Assembly: GCA_030148775.1 (NCBI GenBank)
Contig: JASBST010000024.1
Location: forward strand, 1-32,024
From: Thiogranum sp.
GTDB lineage: Bacteria > Pseudomonadota > Gammaproteobacteria > DSM-19610
Reading direction: 5' to 3'
Length of the DNA stretch: 32,024 nucleotides
Within the stretch, counting starts at the first letter, position 1; the number at the start of each line of letters is the position of its first letter. The notes under the pieces were generated by a model that was not told the origin of the DNA, did no database searches, and saw only the letters and a program-made list of their open reading frames with translations. Positions 4,616 to 22,890 of the stretch are shown here, piece by piece. Made by a program: the position numbers and the translations under genes.

Positions 4616-5134
4616 ATGAACAGCATTTGGATAGGGGCCGCGGGCCTGACGGGATTATTGTTTGGCGTGGCATTGGGAATGCTGTTCACCAGTCGTTTGC
4701 GTGGCGGCGGCCGCAAGGCTAAGGCGCTGGAGGCGGAACTCGCGCAACTGGAACAGCGCTTCAAGGACTATCGCCAGCAAGTCACTCAGCACTTTCTGAC
4801 GACTTCTGAACTGGTGCAAAAAATGTCCGACAGTTACCGCGATGTCTACGAACATCTGGCAGGCGGGTCGCAAACACTCTGTCAGACAAAACTCGACAAA
4901 CCCGGGGAACCGCCACCCGACACGCAGCAATTGCCGGAATCGGAACGGGTGGACACCGAGGCGTCCGATGAAACCCGCGCCTCGAAGAGCCCGCAGCCGG
5001 CGGCCGCCGACCTGAACGCCGACGAGGGGCTGGGCGACGCGCCACGGGTGCCGGAACTGGATATCCACGAGCCGGTCCCGAAAGCCGGTCCGGGCACGCC
5101 GGCCTCCGCCTCTCCTCGCAAAAACGATCTTTAA
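4616..5134 (+). CDS. YhcB/ZapG-like DUF1043 inner-membrane protein
   Basis: The 172-residue protein has an N-terminal membrane helix (about residues 4-25, rich in Gly, Leu and Ala). A coiled coil follows at about 35-60 (ALEAELAQLEQRFKDYRQQV), then the characteristic TQHFLTTSELVQKMSDSYRDVYEHLAGG block of DUF1043 proteins. E. coli YhcB (ZapG) is a cell-envelope and division-linked protein. The last 80 residues are acidic, proline-rich and low in complexity, and are probably disordered. The gene lies about 60 bases before typA with a separate promoter-like element between them. Confidence 0.88.
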   Translation: MNSIWIGAAGLTGLLFGVALGMLFTSRLRGGGRKAKALEAELAQLEQRFKDYRQQVTQHFLTTSELVQKMSDSYRDVYEHLAGGSQTLCQTKLDKPGEPPPDTQQLPESERVDTEASDETRASKSPQPAAADLNADEGLGDAPRVPELDIHEPVPKAGPGTPASASPRKNDL

Positions 5135-18529: not shown

Positions 18530-19006
18530 ATGAAGACTGAAATTGCCCGACGACGCCTGCTCCAATGGCTGGGCGCCGGCACCGGCCTGGCGTTGGCCGC
18601 CCCCCGCGCCGGGGCACAGGACAAGGATGCCGATCTGTTCGGTGAACCCGCCCATAAACTGGTTTATCAGTTCAATAAAGCCGACGTGGATTACATGGAG
18701 CACGTGCTGTTTTCGGTCGGCGCGATGCTGCGCAAATACAGCGACAACGTCCACCTGGTGGTCACCGCCATCGGCCCCGGTCTGCACATTCTCGCCAAGC
18801 AGCCGGGGCGACCGGTGCCCGAAATCATCCGCCAACGCGTCTCCAGTCTGGCGGCCTACGGCGTCAGTTTTCATGCCTGCGGCAATACCATGAAATCGCT
18901 CGGCTGGGACGCATCGCATCTGCTCGAGTTCGCCGAAGTGGTGGAAATCGGCGCCGACGACCTCATGCTTCTCCAGGAACAGGGTTACAGCTATATCAGC
19001 TGGTAA
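18530..19006 (+). CDS. Tat-exported DsrE-like sulfur-relay-fold protein
   Basis: The 158-residue protein has a twin-arginine signal (R7-R8-R9-L-L-Q-W-L-G, then an Ala-rich h-region and AGAQ cleavage). A DsrE/DsrF-like domain follows (KLVYQFNKADVDYMEHVLFS, VTAIGPGLHIL). One conserved Cys lies in FHACGNT at about residue 117. Cytoplasmic DsrE-type proteins relay sulfur on cysteine. Export of this one suggests a periplasmic sulfur or thiol role. GAGGAG at 18519-18524 sets the start. Two c-type cytochromes lie directly downstream on the same strand, which suggests an electron-transfer partnership, although an extended -10 box between them allows separate expression. Confidence 0.85.
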   Translation: MKTEIARRRLLQWLGAGTGLALAAPRAGAQDKDADLFGEPAHKLVYQFNKADVDYMEHVLFSVGAMLRKYSDNVHLVVTAIGPGLHILAKQPGRPVPEIIRQRVSSLAAYGVSFHACGNTMKSLGWDASHLLEFAEVVEIGADDLMLLQEQGYSYISW

Positions 19007-19010
19007 GCTC

Positions 19011-19019
19011 TGTTATAAT
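19011..19019 (+). promoter_or_regulatory. Extended -10 promoter element ahead of the cytochrome pair
   Basis: TG-T-TATAAT is a perfect extended -10 element, starting 5 bases after the DsrE-like gene stop and about 100 bases before the first cytochrome ATG. No consensus -35 is needed for this class, and none is seen. Confidence 0.45.
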
Positions 19020-19121
19020 GCCGCCGGTCCGGCGTTAGAAGACTCCAAAGCAGCCGCCGGAAGCGTTGCGCGGCAATATCGTGCGCACCGACTGTAGACA
19101 TCAAAGACGAGAGTGAGGATT

Positions 19122-19457
19122 ATGAAAGCAAACTATTTACCTTGCCTGGCACTGTTGGCCGCCAGCACCCTGCCGGCGAGCGGGTTGGCCGCCGGCGATG
19201 CGGCCGCCGGCAAGACCAAAGCCTTTACCTGCATGGGATGTCATGGCATTCCCGACTACAACAATGTCTATCCCACCTTCCACGTCCCCAAACTCGGTGG
19301 ACAGCACGCCGAGTACATCGTCGCGGCGTTGCAGGAATACGCCAAAGGCCAGCGCAAACACGGTACCATGCAGGCGCAGGCAAGCACCCTGAGCGAGCAG
19401 GACATGCAGGACATCGCCGCTTTTTTTGCCGCAGGCGGCCGGGAGGACGGAAATTAA
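19122..19457 (+). CDS. Small periplasmic class I c-type cytochrome (first of pair)
   Basis: The 111-residue precursor has a Sec signal peptide (hydrophobic residues 8-22, cleaved near GLAA/GDAAAG). One haem site C37-M-G-C-H41 follows, with the probable distal ligand Met83 in KHGTM. The GGQHAEYIVAALQEYAKGQR helix resembles half of a cytochrome c4/c5-type protein. It is a soluble electron carrier. It is unusual in having an extended aromatic stretch (IPDYNNVYPTFHVPKL) after the haem motif. The next cytochrome begins one base after its stop codon, so translation is probably coupled. Confidence 0.9.
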   Translation: MKANYLPCLALLAASTLPASGLAAGDAAAGKTKAFTCMGCHGIPDYNNVYPTFHVPKLGGQHAEYIVAALQEYAKGQRKHGTMQAQASTLSEQDMQDIAAFFAAGGREDGN

Positions 19458-19458
19458 T

Positions 19459-19809
19459 ATGAACACATTAAAACAGTGGCTCGTGCTGAGCGCTATTTCA
19501 GTTTTCACGCTTTCGGCGCACGCCGGCGGCGACGCCGAGGCCGGCAAGAAAATAGCCAGCCAGACCTGCCAGGCCTGTCACGGCGCCGACGGCAATAGCA
19601 CCAATCCGCAGTATCCGACGCTCGCCGGACAGCACGCCGATTACCTGGTGCACGCCTTGAAGGGCTATAAAAACGGCGACCGCAAGAATCCGATCATGTC
19701 CGGATTTGCCGCCAGCCTGTCGCCCGCCGATATGAAAAATGTAGCCGCCTGGTTCGCCAGCCAGAAAGGGCTGACCTCCCCCAGATTACCCAACACCGTC
19801 CACGAATAG
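19459..19809 (+). CDS. Small periplasmic class I c-type cytochrome (second of pair)
   Basis: The 116-residue precursor has a Sec signal (residues 5-21, AHA/GGDAEAG). It has one haem site C37-Q-A-C-H41 and the probable ligand Met80 in NPIMSGF. The GQHADYLVHALKGYKNGDRK helix parallels the one in the upstream cytochrome, so the pair looks like an old duplication or the two halves of a split dihaem c4-type protein. It resembles cytochrome c553/c4 carriers of Gammaproteobacteria. A perfect 14-bp inverted repeat follows the stop. Confidence 0.92.
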   Translation: MNTLKQWLVLSAISVFTLSAHAGGDAEAGKKIASQTCQACHGADGNSTNPQYPTLAGQHADYLVHALKGYKNGDRKNPIMSGFAASLSPADMKNVAAWFASQKGLTSPRLPNTVHE

Positions 19810-19845: not shown

Positions 19846-19893
19846 TTCGACCCGCCAAAAACGACAAAAAAGGGATTTCTTGTCATTTTTTTC

Positions 19894-19906: not shown

Positions 19907-19953
19907 AAAGCCTGCGACACTTGTGCTAATTACCCAGGCACGGGGTAGGCGTG

Positions 19954-20403
19954 ATGCAAAGTGGTTTCACCCGCCAACAGGCCAGCGCACTTACCGGGCT
20001 TAGCTGCCGCCAACTCGATTACTGGCGCAAAACCGGCCTGGTGATCCCCCAACAGCAAACCGCCGGCGGACACAGCCGCTACGGCTTTATCGACCTCGTG
20101 GTATTACGCGCCGCCAGACGCTTGCTCGACGCCGATATTTCCCTGCAACGCATCCGCAAATGCCTGCAATCGCTCGCGCGCTTTCTGCCCGCCAGCAAAC
20201 ACCCGCTGGCGGAGCTGTCGCTGGTGGTTACAGGTGATGTGGTGCTGGTATTTCATGGTGAGCGCGCCTTCGACGCGCTCACCGGTCAGGAATGGGTCTT
20301 TCCGATCGCCGAACTGGCAGCGGAAGTCGAAAAACTGCAGCAGCCACCGCCGCAACAGGGCGAACTGTTCACTGCTGAAAAACATCCGGGAGTAAGGGCC
20401 TGA
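19954..20403 (+). CDS. MerR-type HTH regulator of the ParA-CBM48 locus
   Basis: The 149-residue protein has an N-terminal MerR winged helix at about residues 4-70: FTRQQASALTGLSCRQLDYWRKTGLV is the HTH, GGHSRYGFIDLVVLRAARRLLD the wing and helix. A C-terminal alpha/beta region follows (LSLVVTGDVVLVFHGERAFDALTGQEWVFPIAEL), ending with a short coiled coil. There are no metal-binding cysteines of the MerR/CueR kind. ATG 19954 and GTG 19951 are adjacent alternatives. The downstream ParA fusion starts 101 bases later on the same strand. The C-terminal domain may be an interaction module for the ParA system rather than a small-molecule sensor, which is inference. Confidence 0.85.
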   Translation: MQSGFTRQQASALTGLSCRQLDYWRKTGLVIPQQQTAGGHSRYGFIDLVVLRAARRLLDADISLQRIRKCLQSLARFLPASKHPLAELSLVVTGDVVLVFHGERAFDALTGQEWVFPIAELAAEVEKLQQPPPQQGELFTAEKHPGVRA

Positions 20404-20504: not shown

Positions 20505-21620
20505 ATGCACATAATTGCCATCGCCAATCAGAAAGGCGGCTGTGGGAAGACCACCACCGCCATCAACCTGGCCGCCGAGCTGGGAAGGCAACAGCAACGC
20601 GTTCTGTTGATCGATATGGATCCCCAGGCGCACGCGTCGCTGGGGCTGGGGATCAGGGAACGCTGTTTGCAGGGGTTGTACGAGGTTTTCAATCACGAGC
20701 TGTCGCTCGAGCAGGCGATCCTGCCACAGGTGATCCAGGGTGTGGATCTGGTGCCGGCGACGGTGACGCTGGCAGCGGTTGAACCGCTGCTGACCGATCA
20801 GCCCGGACGCGAAAGACAATTACTGGAACACCTGGAGTCATTAAAAAACCGTTATGACCAGATTCTCATCGACTGCCCACCCTCGCTGGGCCTGCTTTCG
20901 ATCAACGCCCTGAGATGCGCCGATCGCGTGCTTGCTCCGCTGGACGCCGGGCTTTTCTCCCTGGATGGGTTGCAGCAGTTGCGTGGTATCGTCGGCCTGC
21001 TGGAGGAGAAATACGCGCTGCGTCTGCCGGTGGAAATCGTGTTGACGATGTTCGACGACCATACCCGGCTGGCGCAAACGCTGCTCGGTCACATCCGACA
21101 ACTGTGGCCCGGGACGCTCCACGACATCCGAATTCGTCCCACCGTGCGTGCCCGCGAAGCGGTTTATTTCGGCAAACCGTTATGCCAATACGCGCCCCGG
21201 AGCACGGCCGCTGCCGATTACCGACGTCTGGCCGCGGCACTGCTCGCAGCCGCCCAGCAAACCGCCGCCGGACCGTCGCCCACCACGCCTTGTTCAGGTC
21301 TTGAAAACGACATCGAGGACATCAACATGAGCCTAAGCAGCGAAAAGGCCCTTCGACAGATGGTCGTACTGACGTTCAGCGACATCGAATGCAACCGCTT
21401 GCAACTGGCCGGCGACTTCAACGACTGGGTGCCGGACCACAACGTGGAAACGCGCAAACTCAACGGCCGCTGGCAGAAGGTGTTCACCGCCGAGCCCGGC
21501 GTCTATGAGTACCGGCTGCTGGTAGACGGCAAGTGGCAGGCCGATCCCACCAATCCTCATGAAATACCCAATGACCTCGGCGGCATCAACTCTCTTTTAC
21601 AGGTACCGGCACAACTCTAA
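20505..21620 (+). CDS. ParA-type ATPase fused to a C-terminal glycogen-binding (CBM48/AMPK-beta-like) domain
   Basis: Residues 1-250 are a ParA/MinD ATPase: deviant Walker A K10-G-G-C-G-K-T-T, Walker A' IDMDPQ at 36-41, Walker B LIDCPPSLG at 121-129. A linker of about 25 residues leads to an immunoglobulin-like carbohydrate-binding domain at about 284-369. It contains GDFNDW, EYRLLVDGKWQADP and LGGINSLLQV. Comparison with AMPK-beta from memory shows the starch-contact residues kept as Trp308, Trp344, Leu358 and Asn362, with Lys replaced by Arg337. The 371-codon frame is uninterrupted. An internal ATG at 21327 behind GAGGA could also yield a free binding domain. The next gene overlaps the stop by one base. 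I infer positioning of a polyglucan or glycan-bearing cargo. Confidence 0.88.
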   Translation: MHIIAIANQKGGCGKTTTAINLAAELGRQQQRVLLIDMDPQAHASLGLGIRERCLQGLYEVFNHELSLEQAILPQVIQGVDLVPATVTLAAVEPLLTDQPGRERQLLEHLESLKNRYDQILIDCPPSLGLLSINALRCADRVLAPLDAGLFSLDGLQQLRGIVGLLEEKYALRLPVEIVLTMFDDHTRLAQTLLGHIRQLWPGTLHDIRIRPTVRAREAVYFGKPLCQYAPRSTAAADYRRLAAALLAAAQQTAAGPSPTTPCSGLENDIEDINMSLSSEKALRQMVVLTFSDIECNRLQLAGDFNDWVPDHNVETRKLNGRWQKVFTAEPGVYEYRLLVDGKWQADPTNPHEIPNDLGGINSLLQVPAQL

Positions 21621-22300
21621 TGACCAGTCAGCTCAACCCCGCCTGGCAACGCAGGCCATTTTCCTCCGATCACCTGGCAGAAATCAGTGCCCGCTTTCTC
21701 AGTAGCGAAGCGCGCCCGGCACCGGCTGCTGACAGCTGCCAGGTGATTTCTTTTTTACTCGCCGACAAGGCGCAGGAGGAGATGGTGCGCCAGTTGGGCC
21801 GCGAACTGGCGCGGCAGGAGCCATCGTGCCGCTGGGAATGTCTCGCCACCGATCAGACGGCGGCGGCCGGCGGCGCCCCCTGCACAGGCGGCAACGCGGT
21901 CTGTCTGCTGACCAGCACCTCGGTGGCGCAAGTCATCGAACGGACGTCCGGGCCTGTCGTACTGTCGGTCGGCGCCAGCCTGGCGGGCGTCAGACAGGCG
22001 TATATGGATATCAAACGCCTGAGCGCGTCCCAACAGCGGGATATCGCCGTGCTGCTGGTCGGGCCGCGCGACCAGCACGCCGCGTGGCGCTATTTCCGCA
22101 AACTGGCCGTCGGCACGTTACGTTTTCTGGATATTCCCTTGCTGAATCTCGGCTTCCTGCCGCCGACCGAAACGGCCGATCAGATTCCGCAGGAGCTGCG
22201 CCGGCAACTCCTGAACCGTATCGGCGCCCGCCTACTGCGCTGCGGCTTCCACAACCGGTATACTGAAACCTCGGCAACCGGGGATCGACGCGTATCATGA
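21620..22300 (+). CDS. P-loop-less FlhG/MinD-like protein
   Basis: The 226-residue protein has no Walker A motif. About residues 105-195 nevertheless resemble the C-terminal half of FlhG/FleN and MinD ATPases. In order, it has a strand (PVVLSVGASLAGVRQAYMDIKRL) like the TSITDAYALIKLL segment, another strand (DIAVLLVGPRDQHAAWRYFRKL), and TLRFLDIPLLNLGFLPP like RFLDVALQYVGVIPYD. The N-terminal 100 residues look variable and include two cysteines. I infer a degenerate, non-hydrolysing ParA-superfamily partner of the upstream ATPase. It is coupled on both sides: its ATG overlaps the ParA stop, and its stop overlaps the next ATG as ATGA. Confidence 0.75.
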   Translation: MTSQLNPAWQRRPFSSDHLAEISARFLSSEARPAPAADSCQVISFLLADKAQEEMVRQLGRELARQEPSCRWECLATDQTAAAGGAPCTGGNAVCLLTSTSVAQVIERTSGPVVLSVGASLAGVRQAYMDIKRLSASQQRDIAVLLVGPRDQHAAWRYFRKLAVGTLRFLDIPLLNLGFLPPTETADQIPQELRRQLLNRIGARLLRCGFHNRYTETSATGDRRVS

Positions 22301-22890
22301 GACTCAATATACAGGCGGTGGAAGATTATGATATTGAAGCCCTGCGCGCGCTGTTGATCGACGCCGCCGACGACCTGGTGGGCGCCGGGCACACCCTGCT
22401 CGAATCCAAGCTGCCCTGGGACGGTCACCCGATCCTGCTCGCCGATGCCGATGCCCGCCCGGTGCTGATCAGTTTCGACCTCGCTAACAGCCAGGCGGCA
22501 CTGGTCAGCGGCCTGCATGCCAGCGACCAATTGAGCGCGGCGCTACCCTGGGTCAATCAGGTCTATGCAGGGTTGCAGCGGCTGGAAAAAAGACCCCGTC
22601 TGGTGGTGGTCACCCGTGAACCGCCGCCGGGTTACCAGGCGGTGCTGTCCGGCGATCAGCATCTGTCCCTGTTTCTCTGTCGCGTCTTGCAGGTCAATGA
22701 TGAAACCGGCGTGCTGTTGGAAGCCCTGAATCACGACGGCGCCGCGACCCATGCCGTCCCGTCCGCCGGCGTCACCGCAACCCCCCGCCCCGTCTCACTG
22801 ACCGTCGCCACCCAGCCGCCCGCAGTGGCCGAAGACGACCCGGAGCTTGCGCTGAGCGACCAGGAAGCGAGCTACTTCCAGCAGCTCTGA
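22297..22890 (+). CDS. Uncharacterised third component of the ParA-CBM48 operon
   Basis: No family is recognised with certainty. The 197-residue acidic protein has a folded N-terminal part at about residues 10-150, a Pro/Ala/Thr-rich linker, and a conserved-looking acidic tail (DDPELALSDQEASYFQQL) of the sort used as a docking peptide. The pattern ESKLPWDGHPILLADADARPVLISFDL followed by SAALPWVNQVYAGLQRL is reminiscent of the PD-(D/E)XK nuclease-like fold, with the catalytic E-x-K replaced, so any nuclease activity is doubtful. ATG 22297 overlaps the upstream stop, implying coupled translation and a role in the same complex. Confidence 0.7.
   Translation: MRLNIQAVEDYDIEALRALLIDAADDLVGAGHTLLESKLPWDGHPILLADADARPVLISFDLANSQAALVSGLHASDQLSAALPWVNQVYAGLQRLEKRPRLVVVTREPPPGYQAVLSGDQHLSLFLCRVLQVNDETGVLLEALNHDGAATHAVPSAGVTATPRPVSLTVATQPPAVAEDDPELALSDQEASYFQQL

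Follow-up and report, generated by a model that had tools for sequence, protein, structure and literature searches.

The locus and its fusion gene

The stretch of DNA analysed here (32,024 nucleotides, referred to throughout as the window) comes from a gammaproteobacterium for which Thiogranum and Thiohalobacter MAGs are the closest relatives with a name. It contains an operon in the usual gene order MerR, ParA-CBM, U226 and U197 (Table 1), in which a ParA-type ATPase and a CBM48-type carbohydrate-binding domain (CBM) are encoded by one gene. The frame of this gene is intact, from an ATG at 20505 that is preceded by GGAGAC to a stop codon at 21618-21620; its stop overlaps the start of U226 (TAATG), and the stop of U226 in turn overlaps the start of U197 (ATGA). 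Within the fusion protein, Pfam assigned residues 1-170 to AAA_31 (E 9.7e-50) and residues 288-368 to AMPK1_CBM (PF16561; E 9.6e-9), the latter with a score of 35.8 bits against a curated cut-off of 26.8; it is the single PF16561 match at E <= 0.001 in this genome, which is 86.7% complete. The ParA half carries a deviant Walker A motif with the signature lysine (KGGCGKTT), a Walker A' motif (DMDPQ) and a Walker B region (IDCPPS), the letters of which are invariant across 11 aligned fused rows; its nearest solved structures are a ParA family protein and Soj, and by its sequence motifs it is assigned to the ParA/MinD ATPase family. The preliminary description of this DNA had reported a complete ParA joined in frame to a CBM48-like domain and had suggested that such a protein positions or partitions glycogen; the architecture is confirmed, and the profile match for the second domain, then still to be sought, lies above the curated cut-off.

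Table 1. Position and evidence for the operon features discussed in the text.
Feature	Positions in window	Strand	Evidence or context
Inverted repeat GACAAAAAAGGGATTTCTTGTC, candidate operator	19863-19884	+	Upstream of TTGAC box and MerR
MerR-type HTH protein, 150 aa, first gene of the operon	19951-20403	+	MerR_1, E 3.6e-14
ParA-CBM48 fusion gene, 371 aa	20505-21620	+	ORF check, Pfam, orthologous fusions
ParA domain, residues 1-252	20505-21260	+	AAA_31, E 9.7e-50; invariant motif letters
Internal Shine-Dalgarno GAGGA (21315-21319) and in-frame ATG (21327-21329, codon 275)	21315-21329	+	10/10 fused loci of the genus
AMPK1_CBM/CBM48 domain, residues 288-368	21366-21611	+	Pfam, contact residues, structure-profile match
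U226, P-loop-less FlhG/FleN/MinD-fold protein	21620-22300	+	Model vs. solved structures
U197, weakly NucS/EndoMS-like protein	22297-22890	+	Model vs. solved structures

Distribution and phylogeny of the fusion

In a survey of close relatives (56 genomes, the window's own counted, with 17 in its genus), 10 of the 17 genus genomes encode ParA and the CBM in a single open frame, and five (G003, G004, G009, G010, G014) have the CBM without a full ParA; no CBM row was obtained for the genus members G006 and G013, which are 79 and 82% complete. Elsewhere in the family, the CBM of one genome (G017) is not accompanied by ParA, and G018 and G019 yielded no CBM row. A draw of 369 Gammaproteobacteria, in which genomes with a CBM match of E <= 1e-10 were counted as carriers, contained 16 carriers from 10 families; in 15 of them the CBM lies inside an open frame of 360-522 amino acids that includes ParA (in G041 the frame is open over 393), and the sixteenth, G009, has a stand-alone CBM. 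A draw of 398 genomes at phylum level returned only the window's own genome and one weaker match (G750, E 3.4e-16), so that the fusion appears to be rare overall. In 10,962 bases of a Myxococcales contig (L040), a CBM 37% identical to that of the window was found at positions 4666-4962; these bases contain no match to the window's ParA.

In a midpoint-rooted tree of 23 fused and 13 other ParA domains, from which one locus (L087, a copy of L012) was omitted, all fused domains fall on one side of a branch (98/96) and the other ParA domains on the opposite side. An isolated artefact, against which the preliminary description had proposed a survey of genomes, or a chance fusion is ruled out by the recurrence of the open frame within the genus and among the class-draw carriers, and by the single ParA group; the fusion is real, spread across families and maintained. 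An origin from mobile elements was also rejected, as searches of plasmids and phages at E 1e-5 gave no match to the window's CBM; an alignment of 20 CBM sequences (A7) found no confirmed relative among viral contigs.

Operon partners and the upstream inverted repeat

All four operon genes occur together at the 10 fused loci of the genus and at loci of families f23, f72, f99, f122, f134 and f153; in family f65, no U197 was found, and a partial MerR is present at one of two loci. Three genomes (G099, G326, G100) have ParA-CBM, with no MerR, U226 or U197 within the 17 kb read, and the region from G350 has U226 and U197, with no MerR or CBM. ParA-CBM stands without MerR, U226 or U197 at L091:8533-17001 and L092:8291-17000; its surroundings in L091 include genes for UvrD, a mechanosensitive channel and a sucrose synthase, and the same gene clusters are found in L092. 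At L103:8302-9326, U226 and U197 lie close to DsrE and HrpA, again without MerR or CBM. In the window, a DsrE-like gene and two tandem cytochrome c genes (18542-19809) precede the operon and recur at many loci of the family; an HrpA-type helicase adjoining the DsrE cluster is a recurrent feature of families f1 and f122.

The MerR protein has a conserved C-terminal extension. No Pfam family reached its cut-off in the five U226 and four U197 proteins scanned. Two alignments (A1 and A2) each comprised 15 of 17 loci, and the structure models of U226 and U197 were built from 25 and 23 rows, respectively. The U226 model (mean pLDDT 80) matches FlhG (4rz2; E 4e-6, 12% identity), FleN, including FleN in FleQ complexes, and ParA structures, with TM scores of 0.53-0.59 against three FlhG chains; as modelled, U226 shares the FlhG/MinD fold, and no Walker A motif or P-loop was seen by eye in 15 aligned sequences. 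The U197 model (mean pLDDT 83) has its best EndoMS/NucS match at E 3.3e-3 and TM 0.41, a weak similarity with no match below 1e-3; the catalytic motif ExK of these nucleases appears by eye to be replaced by SFD. Toward its 3' end, U197 has a low-confidence stretch followed by a conserved C-terminal motif, LSxEExxYFQQL (22852-22887 in the window, and in homologues), which is possibly a docking peptide.

The inverted repeat follows the pattern GACAAAAA-N6-TTTTTGTC just upstream of the TTGAC box before MerR. By eye it can be made out in all 16 aligned family loci, imperfectly in some (L009, L020) and with paired changes in both arms in L017 and L019; the site in Table 1 is the only one within the window. 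The strict consensus (<=2 mismatches) was found in seven of the 16 genomes, at one place each and always at this operon; the other nine, including the window's own genome, gave no strict match, the window's site having more mismatches, and a backwards control pattern matched once, in G001. No similar repeat was seen in nine regions upstream of MerR from other families, except for a loosely similar one in L094, and a sigma-70 scan found no promoter. The repeat fits an autoregulatory operator, and is a candidate for one; it could equally be a parS-like or centromere-like site. A wider MerR regulon was considered and rejected, none being visible with the strict consensus confined to this operon in seven genomes.

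These partners bear on the main rival to a positioning role, and a serious one, namely that the CBM reports the glycogen state of the cell while ParA and U226 relay this signal to MerR, to cell division or to motility. FleN acts on FleQ, and the CBM of AMPK beta reports glycogen state. A sensing circuit of this kind would account for the MerR gene with its conserved upstream repeat, for FlhG and FleN (the latter also bound to FleQ) as the best structural matches of U226, and for the retention of the CBM where ParA is missing; yet the strict repeat consensus reveals no further target genes, and three genomes have ParA-CBM with no MerR, U226 or U197 in the 17 kb read. On balance, we regard a glycogen-sensing or regulatory role as unlikely, but deserving of attention ahead of the other alternatives.

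The CBM48 domain and its co-occurrence with glycogen genes

When a profile of 20 CBM sequences was compared with solved structures, the AMPK beta-2 and beta-1 domains were the best matches (E 2.6e-12 and weaker), followed by a pullulanase and then by the plant glucan phosphatases LSF1 and DSP4/SEX4. Contact positions were placed on the window's CBM through alignment to AMPK beta structures, in which the named Trp, Trp, Leu, Asn and Lys positions presumably contact sugar. The conservation of these positions was followed in 30 aligned sequences, consisting of 10 fused and six stand-alone rows from the family, 13 fused rows from other families (the G041 copy and 12 more, with near-duplicates among them; L087 omitted here as well), and one Myxococcales row for which no ParA was found. 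Both tryptophans (34 and 70 of the CBM protein) and the asparagine (88) are invariant in all 30, the lysine position holds arginine in 29, and the leucine is kept in 20; the residues named in the preliminary description, with its exchange of Lys for Arg, were thus correctly recognised. To judge by these residues, the binding site looks functional.

The glgA model (TIGR02095) scored over its cut-off in 199 of the 369 class-draw genomes; the CBM and glgA draws were taken as the same 369 genomes because their number and handles agree. All 16 carriers have glgA, compared to 183 of 353 non-carriers (one-sided p 3.8e-5, with kinship ignored); since the carriers are related, such p-values are overstated, and a calculation at family level, with 10 families at the background rate, gives about 0.001. 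G171 belongs to the genus of the carrier G281; it was not scored as a carrier itself and has at best a weak glgA match (E 1.8e-15). None of the 16 carriers has its best glgA or glgB match close to the fusion: these matches are distant from it or on a different contig, in assemblies that are fragmented. Further genes were compared between the 16 carriers and 50 hand-picked non-carriers: glgB exceeded its cut-off in 16 of 16 vs. 41 of 50 (p 0.10), phaC in two vs. 14 (in a third carrier, G359, it remained below the cut-off), FlhF in 14 vs. 35, and BMC shell proteins were found in six vs. 20, with no significant difference between the two groups for phaC, FlhF or BMC. Among the carriers, glgA and glgB are universal and the other tested traits are not; the 50-genome control set does not separate the groups. 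The co-occurrence with glycogen genes that the preliminary description had proposed to examine is therefore borne out for glgA and left without statistical support for glgB. By the same counts, three other roles were set aside: PHA as cargo, given how few carriers have phaC; carboxysomes as cargo, given the distribution of BMC shell proteins; and a flagellar role, hinted at by the U226 fold, given the non-significant FlhF comparison.

The domain could also be an E-set adaptor for a protein partner that binds no glucan, in which case the link to glycogen would be coincidental. The similarity to known CBMs is modest (35.8 bits), the contact lysine has become arginine and the leucine varies, the glg genes are not neighbours of the fusion, glgA is widespread in the class, and glgB fails to distinguish carriers from hand-picked controls; all of this would suit an adaptor. 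The invariance of both tryptophans and the asparagine in every aligned sequence argues against it, as do the AMPK glycogen-binding domains as best solved relatives and the presence of glgA in every carrier, and we consider a mere adaptor distinctly unlikely.

A possible internal start and relatives without ParA

In all 10 fused loci of the genus, GAGG precedes an in-frame ATG just ahead of the CBM (Table 1), and no Shine-Dalgarno word was found at the other in-frame ATGs of these 10 genes. The glutamate codon inside the internal site is GAG in 10 of 10, in genes with 92 GAG and 138 GAA codons overall. At all six ParA-less loci, the stand-alone CBM gene begins with the equivalent ATG, which is preceded by a site of this kind. 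The ATG at codon 275 is therefore a possible separate start for a CBM protein of 97 amino acids. Among the 13 fused loci from other families, none has an ATG with a Shine-Dalgarno word before the CBM, so that the fusion appears to work without an internal start elsewhere; four of them (L087, L088, L092, L095) have a GTG or TTG with a Shine-Dalgarno-like word there, in a recheck that allowed these start codons where the test within the genus had scored ATG only.

ParA is absent from the locus in six of the 16 locus-bearing genomes of the family, and MerR, CBM, U226 and U197 are retained; among the matches listed for these genomes, other ParA proteins are at most 39% identical and include no close copy. 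In one of the six, G009, fragments resembling both ends of ParA lie between MerR and the CBM on a single contig (L014:1363-1620), which probably reflects a deletion of ParA; no such fragments were seen in the five other ParA-less loci. On a tree of the four retained proteins, which leaves several forks unresolved and has a very long outgroup branch, the ParA state needs five changes by parsimony, at least three of them forced by well-supported branches. Since the fused ParA group reaches other families, the absences are best read as losses. In these relatives, the CBM with U226 and U197 must act without that ParA; the repeated absence of ParA, together with the three carriers without nearby partners, points to a modular system.

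That the window's genus is in the process of losing its ParA half, with free CBM acting alongside U226 and U197 as the working product and the fusion as an ancestral relic, is very unlikely: the internal start in every fused genus locus, the repeated changes of ParA state and the ParA fragments in G009 would all be expected, but 10 fused genomes keep intact ParA motifs and an open frame through the linker, and the other-family fused loci lack the ATG and its Shine-Dalgarno site.

A proposed role of a glucan-tethered ParA in glycogen positioning

A ParA that is tethered to alpha-glucan and positions or partitions glycogen is the most likely reading of this operon, although we hold it tentatively. 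The protein would be a chromosomal positioning ATPase of the ParA type with its cargo adaptor built in: the ParA half is expected to form an ATP-dependent dimer bound to the nucleoid, the C-terminal CBM48 domain would bind alpha-1,4-glucan, that is, glycogen, and through its ATPase cycle the protein would distribute or move glycogen on the nucleoid. Granules would then not build up at the poles, and each daughter cell would inherit glycogen. U226 may be the partner that controls the ATPase, U197 may serve as a scaffold or DNA-binding partner, and MerR would govern the operon through the single upstream inverted repeat. In the window's genus, the internal start would also yield a free CBM, presumably able to coat glycogen without ParA, which may explain why ParA could be lost there. 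That these parts together constitute a dedicated glycogen-partitioning machine, with a ParA that has its own glucan domain, a P-loop-less partner, a putative nuclease-fold protein and MerR control, is slightly less likely.

The proposal of the preliminary description has thus stood in part. In its favor are the fusion itself, the CBM48-type domain, the single ParA group across 10 families, and the occurrence of glgA and glgB in all 16 carriers; against its simple version speak the absence of ParA in six relatives, an internal start that may make free CBM, the distance of the glg genes and the p of 0.10 for glgB. Several of these points count against glycogen positioning more generally: ParA is missing at six of the 16 family loci, no carrier has its top glgA or glgB match close to the fusion, glycogen genes are common (glgB in 41 of 50 non-carriers), the contact lysine is replaced and the leucine inconstant, and the system is rare in the phylum draw. 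The operon with its P-loop-less FlhG/MinD-like protein, the internal start and the ParA-less relatives are additions to the earlier account.

The need for such a system can be argued from Escherichia coli csrA mutants, in which, according to PMC4836754, glycogen accumulates at old poles, presumably excluding the chromosome, and cells cease to divide once a pole is about five divisions old; misallocation of glycogen is thus costly. With a predicted glucan-binding domain fused to ParA, active positioning of glycogen can be put directly to the test. Taken together with the conserved internal start signal, the lack of ParA in several close relatives may also illustrate how a fused gene comes apart again. 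Among the open-access papers listed in literature searches, judged by titles and the beginnings of abstracts, none describes a ParA that binds or positions glycogen, in agreement with the earlier impression that no such system had been described; neither CBM48 nor ParA is mentioned in the 300,000 of 445,374 characters of PMC11046441 that were covered, and the word glycogen is absent from a review of granule proteins (PMC13052382).

Comparison with known systems

In AMPK beta, SEX4 and LSF1, a CBM48-type domain takes a signalling protein to glycogen or starch. These proteins provide the best solved matches to the CBM described here, which belongs to the same type; in contrast to them, it is attached to a bacterial ParA ATPase. 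U226 resembles FlhG, FleN and MinD in fold, and differs from them in having no P-loop and only about 12% identity to FlhG. With the partition ATPases ParA and Soj, the ParA half shares its fold and motifs, Soj being among the nearest solved relatives; unlike them, it carries an added CBM, and the fused ParA domains group apart from the 13 other ParA domains. As to a ParABS-type partner, Pfam scans of MerR, U226 and U197 showed no ParB family.

Granules can also be linked to the nucleoid by other means: PhaM, PhaF, PhaH and AlgP are DNA-binding proteins that attach PHB or polyphosphate granules to it, and their ATP dependence is listed as unknown in PMC13052382; in the window's system, the corresponding element would be a ParA-type ATPase. 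ATPases of the ParA/MinD family place chromosomes, carboxysomes, flagella and chemoreceptors (in part PMC10241942). A close parallel in this family is the McdA/McdB system of carboxysome positioning (PMC6328274, PMC10241942), although the carboxysome as its cargo does not carry over, BMC shell proteins being present in a minority of carriers (6/16). PMC10241942 describes a ParA-type ATPase that places a non-DNA metabolic compartment on the nucleoid, as is proposed here for glycogen; there, the separate protein McdB provides the link to the cargo, whereas in the window's operon a predicted glucan-binding domain is fused to the ATPase itself.
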